Source: Listeria innocua (GTDB taxonomy: Bacteria; Bacillota; Bacilli; Lactobacillales; Listeriaceae). From it: 64,000 bases of DNA. The stretch's first letter is position 1. Every line of letters starts with the position of its first letter. The translations under genes were made by a program, and so were the position numbers. Shown here one piece after another: positions 20,661-59,855 of the stretch. The stretch lies in assembly GCF_028596125.1 (NCBI RefSeq), contig NZ_CP117229.1, positions 2,216,001 through 2,280,000 on the forward strand, given 5' to 3'. The notes below the pieces were generated by a model. That model did not search any database. It was not told the origin of the DNA and saw only the letters and a list, made by a program, of their open reading frames with translations.

Positions 20661-20927
20661 GTGTTTTTAAAATCACTGCTCGCTGGTGTCGCACTTGCTG
20701 TTGTAGTTTTCCTAGCAAGTTTTCTGATGCCTGACTACACTGTATCCACCTTATATTCCATCGTAACAACTATCATTGTTTTTGCCTCCATTATCTTATC
20801 TGCATTCGTATCCTTTGGTGGGCGTAGTGGAAATCCAAGTCGAAAAAGCCAATTACGCTGGAGTATCCTGTTTTTAGTTGCAGCAATTCCTAGCTTTATC
20901 GGCTTTATTATTACTTTTTACTTTTAA
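20661..20927 (+). CDS. Small three-helix membrane protein of unknown function
   Basis: This 88-residue protein has hydrophobic segments at about 2-22, 32-50 and 68-87 and one basic loop, FGGRSGNPSRKSQLRW. The start is GTG 20661; its upstream region has only a weak AAATGAG ribosome-binding site. It has a tight terminator on either side, so it is a single-gene unit. I do not recognise a characterised family. Confidence 0.65.
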   Translation: MFLKSLLAGVALAVVVFLASFLMPDYTVSTLYSIVTTIIVFASIILSAFVSFGGRSGNPSRKSQLRWSILFLVAAIPSFIGFIITFYF

Positions 20928-21540: not shown

Positions 21541-21567
21541 TAAATTATTCCGCCTATAAAAGAAGAC

Positions 21568-21601
21568 AAAAAAAGACGCTCGAAATAAACATTTCCAGCG
21601 T
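21568..21601 (-). terminator. Terminator of LhrA
   Basis: On the reverse strand, ACGCT-G-GAAAT pairs with ATTTC-G-AGCGT (one internal G-G mismatch) and is followed by C and T7. Confidence 0.9.
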
Positions 21602-21835
21602 TGCCATCATGTTCGGTCGTCTATGCATAACGGGATGAGGCATAGACATAAACTACACGGCCAATGAGATGAATGAAAACAAATAATGATTTTGGTGTCT
21701 AAACAGATGTCTGACTAGTTGCCATTCTATTGGAAGATGGATACACCAAAAGTCATTATAACCATGATAGGGTCTTATCCCCATGAAAATCACATTTATA
21801 AAATGAAACTTTCATCGAGGTAAAACTCTATCCTA
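21568..21835 (-). ncRNA. lhrA: LhrA Hfq-binding small RNA
   Basis: Position identifies this as LhrA: known L. monocytogenes LhrA lies between the PfpI-like gene (lmo2256) and the small gene lmo2257 and is about 268 nt. On the reverse strand, TTGCTT and TAAAAT spaced by 16 bases predict a 5' end near 21835. An intrinsic terminator (ACGCT..AGCGT stem plus T7) ends near 21568, giving 268 nt. No convincing open reading frame lies inside. LhrA is known to act with Hfq as an antisense repressor of mRNAs including lmo0850 and chiA. Bases 21758-21772 are perfectly complementary to a reverse-strand RNA at 58457-58471. Confidence 0.85.
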
Positions 21836-57082: not shown

Positions 57083-58324
57083 CTATTCCCCCTGATTGAT
57101 GGAAATTTTCAAGGCAGCTTTTTCTTGTTGATCCTTTTTCTGTAAAATTTGTTGTAAGGTAATGCTAACTAGCGCACATCCGAGTAAAATAAATGCGCCA
57201 ATGAATAAAGCTTTGATGCCGCCTAAATGTTGAACTACAATTGCTCCTAAAAATGGCGCGAGCATGCGAGCGGCTGTAGCCATTCCGTTCACTAAGCCTT
57301 GATATAAACCGGCCGCTCCTTTTGGTGCAAGTTGATAAGCAATTGTTGGGATTGCTGGCCAAGCAAACATTTCGCCGAGTGTTAAGAAAATCATCCCTAA
57401 CACAAAACCGCTATATACGCTTGCATTCATTGCGACAACAAAGGATAAAATAAATAAGACAATACCGATATAAATTTGTGCCAGTAAGTATTTTTTAAAT
57501 CTATTAACAACTGGAATTAAAACTAATTGCCCCAGTACAATAAGAGCGCCGTTTAAACTCCATAAATTACCGTATTCGCTAGAAGTCACACCTTTTATTT
57601 CCGTCATATAAGTAGAAAGATTGGACTGCCACTGCACATGTGGTAATTGGCAGAGTAAGTATGTCAGTAATAATAGCACAAAAGAACATAATGCGAGCTT
57701 CGTTGGAAATTCTCGTTTAGCTCCTTTTTTACGATGTTTTGTTTCTACATTAACTTTTTCGGATTTCCAGTCTATTTTGTAGAAGAAAAAGAAAAAATAG
57801 CCAGCAAATATAATTGCAAATACAAAAGAACCAATATATACGTGGCTCATTCCTTGTTTTGCTAGTAGACCTGCAAGAAGCGGCCCTACTGCAACCCCGA
57901 TATTTTGAGCAACATAAATCGCATTAAACCCTGTTCTCCCACCAGTTGGATGCGTTAACCCTGCCGCTGCGTAAAGCCCTGAGAATACCATTCCCATCGC
58001 AATACCAACCGCCCATAAATTCCAAATAAAGAACGGAAATCCGTGGAAGAAACATAATGAAGCTGTTGAGAGTACTAATATTATCGTACCAATTGTAAGT
58101 GAAATAAAGCCTGAAAAACGGTCAAAAATAAGTCCACCGATAATACTTGAAATAATTCCTACACCTGAATTAATCAACAATACCAATGAAGCATCCGTGG
58201 TTGACATACCCAACTCTTGCGTCATATAAATCATATTAAAAGGCCAAATAAATGATAGCCCTGTATATAGTAACACCATTCCAATAATAACAATCCATAA
58301 ATCCTTTGGTAACCATTTCGTCAT
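57083..58324 (-). CDS. MFS transporter, multidrug-efflux-like
   Basis: This 413-residue protein has 12 hydrophobic segments and the loop 2-3 motif FDRFSGF. The hydrophilic central loop (~residues 190-205, HRKKGAKRE) separates two six-helix halves. The annotation as efflux is by family only. It is the first gene of a two-gene unit with the amidohydrolase, so the substrate could equally be an imported amide. Confidence 0.82.
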   Translation of the reverse strand: MTKWLPKDLWIVIIGMVLLYTGLSFIWPFNMIYMTQELGMSTTDASLVLLINSGVGIISSIIGGLIFDRFSGFISLTIGTIILVLSTASLCFFHGFPFFIWNLWAVGIAMGMVFSGLYAAAGLTHPTGGRTGFNAIYVAQNIGVAVGPLLAGLLAKQGMSHVYIGSFVFAIIFAGYFFFFFYKIDWKSEKVNVETKHRKKGAKREFPTKLALCSFVLLLLTYLLCQLPHVQWQSNLSTYMTEIKGVTSSEYGNLWSLNGALIVLGQLVLIPVVNRFKKYLLAQIYIGIVLFILSFVVAMNASVYSGFVLGMIFLTLGEMFAWPAIPTIAYQLAPKGAAGLYQGLVNGMATAARMLAPFLGAIVVQHLGGIKALFIGAFILLGCALVSITLQQILQKKDQQEKAALKISINQGE

Positions 58325-58403
58325 TTCCTACACTTTCCCTTCTTAAAAACTAACCTTTTTTAGGTTATCACAACCACGCTCTTTCGAAAAGAAAAAGTTC
58401 ATC

Positions 58404-58433
58404 AAAAAACCACCTAGCAAATTTTGCTGGTGG
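58404..58433 (-). terminator. Intrinsic terminator
   Basis: Reverse-strand CCACC-AGCAAA pairs with TTTGCT-GGTGG (one bulged base) and is followed by T6. Confidence 0.9.
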
Positions 58434-58470
58434 CTAATAAGGGACTGGCAATAATTCCCTATCATGGTTA
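58404..58470 (-). ncRNA. Candidate small RNA or 3' UTR complementary to LhrA
   Basis: A strong reverse-strand terminator ends at 58404 and no gene ends near it (the upstream gene stops 90 bases earlier). CAGACA (about 58504-58499) and TACACT (58481-58476), 17 bases apart, would start an RNA near 58469; otherwise this is the 3' UTR of the Crp-like gene. Its 5' part, ATAACCATGATAGGG (58471-58457), is the perfect complement of LhrA at 21758-21772. The transcript has not been tested. Confidence 0.4.
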
Positions 58471-58523
58471 TTCTAAGTGTACTATGAATTGCGTCATTTG
58501 TCTGTGAAAATGTTAGAAATATT

Positions 58524-59135
58524 TTAATTATTTTTTTCTAGTATTAAATCATATTCTAAGTTTCTTAAATAAGAGTGAAATTGAGATACATTTATTTCAA
58601 AATAATAGCCTAATTCAAAAAGAATATGTCGCTCTTTCAATTCATTTAATTGGGCAATATAGGACTCTTTGGGAAGTATTTGCATAATCTCTTGACGAAA
58701 ATACCCTTGTGCGATTTTCCAAGAAGTAGTATGAAGTCTATCCGGCATTTTTTTAATGAACCATTGGATACAATCCTTTGTTTCCCGTTTCAAAAAGTTC
58801 ATTTCTATTGCTGTTAGATCTTCCAGCTTCACTTTATCCATATTTTTCACTATATCAGCAACATATGTTAAAGGAATTTTCCAAGCAACGGTCTTACATA
58901 AGGGGTGGATTTTTGTCTTTTCTCGAATAAAACCAAGAACGCTTCCTTTCCCCCAAGAACTATTTTTTTCTGCGTATTGCGTTACGCTGCCTTCATCAAT
59001 CGCGTAAACAAATTCATTATTTTCAGGACAATCAATAATATCATCCTTGTTCCAATACACCAATTCAGCTACTTCTTGAAACTTCGGATTACTAGTCAAA
59101 GTAAAAATCAACTCCGTAGTAAACATTCCCATCAT
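58524..59135 (-). CDS. Crp/Fnr-like protein of unknown role
   Basis: This 203-residue protein resembles a divergent Crp/Fnr-type regulator: a cNMP-binding-like beta-roll (EFVYAIDEGSVTQYA, KGSVLGFI) is followed by a helical region, and a recognisable HTH is weak. Listeria has many such orphans related to PrfA. The GGCGGGATAA ribosome-binding site precedes the ATG. It stands alone between two terminators. The HTH and DNA-binding role are inferred. Confidence 0.6.
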   Translation of the reverse strand: MMGMFTTELIFTLTSNPKFQEVAELVYWNKDDIIDCPENNEFVYAIDEGSVTQYAEKNSSWGKGSVLGFIREKTKIHPLCKTVAWKIPLTYVADIVKNMDKVKLEDLTAIEMNFLKRETKDCIQWFIKKMPDRLHTTSWKIAQGYFRQEIMQILPKESYIAQLNELKERHILFELGYYFEINVSQFHSYLRNLEYDLILEKNN

Positions 59136-59187
59136 TTATCCCGCCTCCTCAAAATCATTGCGAAATTGCAACTTCTTTAATCATAAT

Positions 59188-59232
59188 AAAAAAAGAGCGA
59201 GAGATAAGTTCTTAAAGAACCATCTTCTCGCT
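59188..59232 (-). terminator. Terminator upstream of the Crp-like gene
   Basis: Reverse-strand AGCGAGAAGAT and ATCTCTCGCT arms close a long stem with inner TTCTT/AAGAA pairing and are followed by C then T7. It ends the HAD-NagB-DUF308 unit. Confidence 0.9.
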
Positions 59233-59324
59233 TCTTATGTCTATTTTGTGACAGAATTACCACTCCACTTTTAAAAATGTTATATTTTTAACATTTTTAT
59301 ATAAAACAGGATAAAAAATTAGCA

Positions 59325-59855
59325 TTATTTCCGGTGTTCTCCTTTTCTAATAACCCACCAAAGGGATAGACAAGTAATTCCTTGGAAGACGAAAAACAGT
59401 CCTAAAATAATTCCGATTGCAATCGCTACTAATGTATTCGTGAACAACGAAATAACAGCAATAACAATTCCTAAAATCCCCATTATGAGCAGTAAAGTCC
59501 AGCCCGGGAAACCTTTTACGGCAAAAGCAGTTAAAATTCGTAAAATCGCTGAGGCTAATATCCAAATGGCAAAGATGATAATAAAAATACGTTCGGCCAT
59601 ATTCGATTCAAAAATAGCAAAACCACCTACCAAGATCGATAATATCCCGTCTAGCATAATCCATTTAGAAATGCTCCAATATTTACGTTCGCCAAAGTAA
59701 GAAATAACTTCATTAATTCCATTTAGCACTAAAATAATTCCGATAAAAATTGTTAGCGCTTGAAGAGAAGTACTCGGGTTAAACATTAAATAAATGCCAA
59801 GCCCAATCATTGCTATGCCGAGAATTAATACAAAGTAAGTATATAATTTCCTCAT
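59325..59855 (-). CDS. DUF308/HdeD-family membrane protein
   Basis: This 176-residue protein has six membrane helices in an internal repeat, each repeat ending in a G-rich loop (VLNGINEVI, ILASAILRI). HdeD-like proteins are linked to acid or envelope stress but their function is unclear. It lies 14 bases after the glucosamine-6-phosphate deaminase-like gene and is the last gene of that unit. Confidence 0.82.
   Translation of the reverse strand: MRKLYTYFVLILGIAMIGLGIYLMFNPSTSLQALTIFIGIILVLNGINEVISYFGERKYWSISKWIMLDGILSILVGGFAIFESNMAERIFIIIFAIWILASAILRILTAFAVKGFPGWTLLLIMGILGIVIAVISLFTNTLVAIAIGIILGLFFVFQGITCLSLWWVIRKGEHRK

Follow-up and report, generated by a model that had tools for sequence, protein, structure and literature searches.

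A predicted small RNA of Listeria with a 5′ end antisense to LhrA and a possible route to opening the LhrA 5′ stem

The locus described here raises the question of whether a short sequence between two protein-coding genes encodes an RNA that pairs with the small RNA LhrA, and of what such pairing would do. Few Gram-positive small RNAs have been shown to be Hfq-dependent, and LhrA is among them (PMC8079631). Its loss alters about 300 genes (PMC3078929), and in stationary-phase RNA-Seq of strain 10403S it ranked third among all genes by read density (PMC2813243). Within the 64,000-nucleotide stretch of Listeria innocua DNA that was analyzed (the window), LhrA (RF00615) occupies 21567–21834 on the minus strand, with an Rfam score of 330.8 bits against a gathering score of 100. 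The original prediction, a perfect 15-nt complement to LhrA elsewhere in the window, proved exact on recheck, coordinates included: ATAACCATGATAGGG at 58471–58457 (minus strand) is the exact complement of LhrA at 21772–21758. The complementary segment corresponds to LhrA nt 63–77 rather than nt ~64–78 as first numbered.

To judge how readily such a match arises by chance, several controls were compared. No place in the window beyond the two sites lies within two mismatches of the 15-mer, and dinucleotide shuffles of this search gave a mean of 0.07, the same order of magnitude as the 0.03 estimated beforehand. The window as a whole contains 27 direct and 23 inverted 15-mer pairs, in which long repeats are counted by every 15-mer. 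In the 2.89-Mb genome, there is no third place at zero or one mismatch from the 15-mer, and six further places occur at two mismatches. For LhrA against any sequence, the match count is suggestive, not decisive, given that a genome-wide BLAST of LhrA returns the 15-nt match at an E value of 0.67, level with two matches inside open frames. The sharpest control among those run is the length of the exact complement: in 60,000 dinucleotide shuffles, none reached 14 nt and 14 reached 13 nt, a test that covers this RNA versus LhrA, a pair that had been picked beforehand in the first reading of the sequence. When the complement of the 5′ part of the small RNA was used as the query, LhrA was the best match in the genome (E 0.17), sharing that rank with a match to nt 33–68 of the small RNA, mostly terminator. 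Near copies of the site in four other genomes (G004, G005, G021 and G023) were discarded; each carries one mismatch, and a long open frame runs across each on one or the other strand. The control pattern read backward gave four matches over the 25 Listeria genomes.

The 15-mer belongs to what is, with good confidence, a conserved small RNA gene at 58471–58404 on the minus strand. The conserved unit and its predicted folds indicate an RNA of ~66–68 nt, with a 5′ end at 58471–58469 and a 3′ end in a U tract. Upstream of it are a −35-like CAGACA (58499–58504, minus strand) and a −10-like TACACT (58476–58481, minus strand; TAGACT in four species), each with five of six columns invariant in the 15 genomes that carry the element, and the spacer between them is 17 nt in all 15 alignment rows. 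Because this promoter-like pair has a constant spacer, the start is predicted at ~58471–58469, and the LhrA site would therefore form the extreme 5′ end of the RNA. By eye, the pair agrees with the consensus at 8 of 12 positions, below the 9 of 12 set as the threshold of the promoter scan, so that it went unlisted; its conservation suggests that it is the promoter of the small RNA. The strong hairpin originally noted at 58404 was recovered as a stem-loop at 58434–58410 followed by six T at 58409–58404 (minus strand), which together resemble an intrinsic terminator in sequence, in single folds and in the consensus fold. A terminator scan of 58250–59400 listed none, this hairpin included, presumably because of a bulge, and the terminator was accordingly judged by fold rather than by scan. 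As proposed at the outset, the candidate RNA has its own predicted terminator and carries the LhrA site at its 5′ end, and the whole element is kept together in 15 of the 25 genomes.

In the alignment of 15 genomes, the substitution rates across this unit follow the outline of a small gene. The −35-like and −10-like elements each show 0.17 changes per site, the LhrA site 0.33 and the terminator stem-loop 0.24, as compared with 1.29 in the spacer, 1.77 in the upstream coding end and 0.94 in the stretch after the U tract. A covariance model of the RNA (R1), run against the 25 genomes with 150 first-look candidates scored in each, returned one strong copy in 15 genomes (E ≤ 6.6e-20) and no copy in the other ten. 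The strong matches arise by construction, because those 15 genomes built the model; the new information lies in the single copy and the absence elsewhere. Second copies and outgroup versions of the RNA were sought among the same results and dismissed, the next best match anywhere having an E value of 0.007. Rfam 15 models gave no family match to 58300–58600 up to an E value of 1, and the 3′ U tract of six is the only Hfq-related feature of the RNA. A leader peptide starting at the ATG within the 15-mer was also rejected, based on the lack of a ribosome-binding site, the replacement of ATG by GTG in G012 and G014, and indels that by eye break the frame. The candidate RNA may already have an ‘rli’ name; seven new ncRNAs are listed by 10403S coordinates in PMC2813243.

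The genes on either side help to define the limits of this unit. Upstream, at 58524–59135 (minus strand), is a fast-evolving coding gene for a 203-aa protein, whose distribution coincides with that of the small RNA (15 of 25 genomes), apart from two additional weak matches. Its product is 93% identical in one genome and 54–71% identical in the others with the gene. No family was detected for this protein in Pfam or NCBIfam, and a profile from 11 of the 15 orthologues found nothing better than an E value of 0.28 among PDB sequences. Downstream, at 57083–58324 (minus strand), is a gene for an MFS transporter (PF07690). Between the RNA terminator and this gene lies an extended −10 like element, TGTGATAACCT (58362–58372, minus strand), with 10 of 11 columns invariant, and this sequence or a near relative precedes the transporter in all 15 genomes with the RNA. 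Nine outgroup genomes carry the transporter gene at 70–79% identity without the RNA, and in six of the nine, by eye, TGNTATGCT is found close before the transporter start codon. Given these separate elements before the transporter, the RNA is more likely its own transcript than a transporter leader. A small hairpin, GGTTGTGATAACC (GGGTGTGATACCC in some species), lies over the transporter −10 like element (58375–58363, minus strand), and by eye a paired change keeps its stem. The neighborhood presumably corresponds to locus tags lmo2354–2358; no paper on lmo2355 with Listeria was present in the literature searched.

On the side of LhrA, the partner region comprises nt 56–77 (21758–21779, minus strand), where the 3′ strand of LhrA’s 5′ stem runs into the linker that follows. 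The complement of the 15-mer is perfect in LhrA of 24 of the 25 genomes. Since LhrA nt ~48–77 are identical in nine of the ten genomes without the small RNA, the LhrA side has another reason for its conservation, and its constancy is no proof of co-evolution. In the free LhrA of G000, the UU of the linker is predicted to be unpaired and the AUGG before it about half unpaired. The published pairings with lmo0302 and chiA use a different part of LhrA, nt ~147–172 (PMC3078929; positions mapped here). Apart from this known mRNA-binding motif, the block at nt ~49–77 (21786–21758, minus strand) is identical in 24 of the 25 Listeria genomes, and LhrA may make a second contact through the linker in this block, AUGGUUAU.

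To follow the complement through evolution, the two sites were compared in the 15 genomes that carry both. The 15-mer pairs perfectly with LhrA in two species, with one G-U change in nine and with two G-U changes in two, so that all 15 positions are pairable in 13 of 15 species when G-U is allowed. The pairing is broken in the remaining two, inside the 15-mer in G020 and at both ends in G011, where 13 nt are kept. The original prediction had named, as an outcome that would speak against it, mutation on one side without compensation; this is what is seen in G011 and G020, whereas the other 13 are intact, and pairing at the site is still predicted in these two genomes at 0.83 and 0.86. Both sites are conserved; no compensatory change between the small RNA and LhrA was seen in the species compared, in which the LhrA side hardly varies. 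The pairing also exceeds the 15-mer. Following a 2-nt internal loop (58456–58455), UUAU(U/C) at 58450–58454 (minus strand) pairs with GAUAA at LhrA nt 56–60, an extension found both as a 21-nt BLAST match at 90% and in the cofolds.

Joint folding of the two RNAs predicts a dimer in all 15 genomes, with a gain of 8.5–16.4 kcal/mol and the site paired at a mean probability of 0.83–0.95. In the free small RNA, nt 1–7 are predicted to be unpaired at 0.90–1.00 in 15 of 15 genomes. When the tail is shortened by its first 6 nt, the gain drops into the range −6.8 to +0.6. The single-stranded 5′ end and this loss of gain point to a toehold mechanism. Pairing is predicted to open LhrA nt 3–14, the molecule’s own 5′ strand, in 12 of 15 genomes; opening of the 5′ stem is not predicted in G011, G012 and G014. 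The known mRNA-binding motif of LhrA stays unpaired, moving from 0.80 to 0.92 in G000 and standing at 0.91–0.95 in the dimer across all 15. In a longer read-through transcript (folded for G000 only), most of the site is taken up in pairing with downstream sequence, and the short RNA is therefore the better partner. According to the consensus fold, half of the site is also within the RNA’s own hairpin, and this role may account for part of the conservation of the site. The 5′ tail TAACC lies outside the consensus hairpin and is invariant in 15 of 15.

The strength of these energies depends on the control applied. The joint-fold energy is reached by 26 of 2544 window segments (the top 1%), one of which overlaps the site, and shuffles of the first 22 nt match it in 9 of 1000 cases. 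Plain duplex scores do not separate the site, as 251 of 3180 are as good or better; such energies are uninformative because very long loops are allowed. Scoring that takes conservation into account, run on 8 of the 15 species, puts a segment covering the site at the head of the 474 drawn from the two loci (−13.7); the RNA itself scores −12.3, and that one segment alone scores better. When alignment columns were shuffled, 1 of 400 was as good on the duplex score. Taken by itself, the single-species energy of the pairing is not unusual enough to set the site apart. Among the 2544 segments, the strongest joint fold with LhrA (−24.2 kcal/mol) belongs to 20727–20800 on the minus strand, which lies 3′ beyond the minus-strand gene adjoining LhrA and is antisense to a plus-strand ORF at 20661–20927.

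That the small RNA pairs functionally with LhrA is, in our estimation, an evenly poised proposition. The best reading of the data, to which we assign the same middling confidence, is that 58471–58404 encodes an LhrA-directed, trans-acting small RNA of ~66–68 nt, present in 15 of 25 Listeria genomes and antisense to LhrA at its 5′ end, that invades the LhrA 5′ stem from a toehold. If the RNA is made and the two RNAs meet in cells, as we infer, the single-stranded tail AUAACCA would meet the linker AUGGUUAU after the 5′ stem, and pairing would run on through AUGAUAGGG and then past a small internal loop to UUAUC. The 3′ strand of the stem (CCCUAUC ... GAUAA) would thereby be peeled from LhrA’s own 5′ strand, a strand that the small RNA resembles (GAUAGGGAUUUAUC in the small RNA, GAUAGAGUUUUA(U)CC in LhrA). 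LhrA would probably be left with its 5′ end unprotected and with an RNA duplex of ~20 bp, and the effect on LhrA would be faster decay or altered activity rather than masking of the mRNA-binding motif. With the motif free and nt 3–14 released, the simplest reading is an attack on the 5′ stem, not competition for a seed. It is also possible that LhrA acts on the small RNA through the same duplex.

These features bear on the roles first suggested for the RNA, namely sponge, target or partner of LhrA. A partner role is plausible, with pairing at the site predicted in 15 of 15 genomes. The conserved complementarity to a regulatory small RNA that is used to recognize sponges and anti-sRNAs is present. 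In contrast, a classical sponge would cover the mRNA-binding motif of LhrA, whereas the joint fold leaves nt ~147–172 free; because the published motif stays unpaired, the RNA is not a sponge in the strict sense. A target in the form of a repressed mRNA start is unlikely, as the AUG has no ribosome-binding site and by eye its frame is not conserved.

A competing explanation, to which we give appreciable but clearly lesser weight, is that the small RNA is real and its complement to LhrA coincidental, the 5′ end being conserved because it forms a hairpin and serves other targets. Within the RNA, the site’s 3′ portion is indeed paired, comparable energies occur in 1% of window segments, the LhrA block is just as intact in nine of ten genomes that have no partner, and CCAGUC in the loop and hairpin is about as conserved as the LhrA site. 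Coincidence does not readily explain why no shuffle among the 60,000 attained 14 nt, why TAACC is unchanged in all 15 genomes with the RNA even though it is unpaired and outside the hairpin, or why, with the complement of the RNA 5′ part as query, no genome match is better than LhrA. It is considerably less probable that the element is no more than the 203-aa gene’s 3′ end: a terminator and perhaps a 3′-UTR-derived RNA. The gene and the element do occur together in 15 of 25 genomes, and no other terminator was seen by eye between the stop codon (58524) and 58404, a stretch in which the scan lists none but also missed the one at 58404. Against this reading, the gene and the element are separated by a promoter-like pair whose boxes hardly vary while its spacer does, and the gene is much less conserved than the RNA. 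Even so, the mRNA of the 203-aa gene would carry the LhrA site too.

The position of the terminator about 80 nt before the transporter start codon, on the same strand, would also fit a leader with a conditional terminator for the MFS gene, and attenuators before transporter-type resistance genes are known in Listeria, as for Rli53/lmo0919 (PMC8079631). We nevertheless regard this attenuator reading as decidedly improbable and set it aside: the transporter has its own conserved extended −10 like element between the terminator and the start codon in the 15 RNA-bearing genomes, inspection by eye places TGNTATGCT in a similar position in six of nine outgroups that lack the RNA and shows no conserved leader ORF, and in longer leader folds (G000 only) the terminator persists and no antiterminator is predicted. 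Less credible still, to the point of being negligible, is a DNA-binding site common to the two loci in place of RNA–RNA pairing. By eye, CATAGTAC-ACTTATAAGT-AACCATG forms an imperfect dyad around the predicted start in some species, but 6 of the 15 species differ by one base in the spacing of the dyad, its center varies, and the motif in LhrA lies inside the transcript.

Stem invasion by the small RNA has its closest parallel in RosA of Bacillus subtilis, a sponge of the small RNAs RoxS and FsrA that its authors propose to open the RoxS 5′ stem-loop and thereby speed RoxS decay (PMC8216469). RosA is, as the RNA predicted here would be, a stand-alone Gram-positive small RNA that pairs with another small RNA. 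It differs in that its largest form is ~225 nt, as compared with ~67 nt, in that it sets G-rich stretches against C-rich target-binding regions of its partners (PMC8216469), and in that it also covers the target-binding regions of RoxS, whereas the site here spares the known LhrA motif. Contacts with other small RNAs are also reported for RsaI of Staphylococcus aureus, another stand-alone small RNA from the Firmicutes, although it pairs through a G-rich motif (PMC8216469). The LhrA pairings with lmo0302, chiA and lmo0850 share the antisense principle, and the published Hfq dependence is theirs (PMC3078929); for lmo0302 and chiA, LhrA nt ~147–172 meet mRNA starts, whereas here LhrA nt 56–77 would meet the 5′ end of a small RNA. 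The Rli53 and Rli59 attenuators of Listeria are also short terminated RNAs upstream of another gene (PMC8079631), but they are leaders with a small ORF, in contrast to an RNA with no conserved ORF and a downstream gene that apparently has its own promoter. No RNA controlling LhrA was found in the literature searched, to which the main Listeria transcriptome papers did not belong, and the word ‘sponge’ is absent from the main text of a 2021 Listeria review and of a 2026 LhrC5 paper. If the conserved antisense is true, LhrA gains a regulator of its own with a testable mechanism, and a use is found for an LhrA segment untouched by the lmo0302 and chiA pairings shown. More tentatively, and with less confidence than we place in the pairing, a clade of Listeria may carry a dedicated antisense RNA that disarms or remodels LhrA, the model Hfq-dependent small RNA of Gram-positives, by toehold invasion of the 5′ stem and without masking of the mRNA-binding motif, with AUGGUUAU (invariant in 24 of 25 genomes) as a docking site for partner RNAs.

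Finally, a separate exact 15-nt complement, to LhrA nt 38–52, was observed over a start codon at 1496262–1496248 on the minus strand of contig C2 of G000 (L094). From reading of the sequence alone, the gene start resembles that of threonyl-tRNA synthetase. This match may represent a target of LhrA or a chance occurrence.
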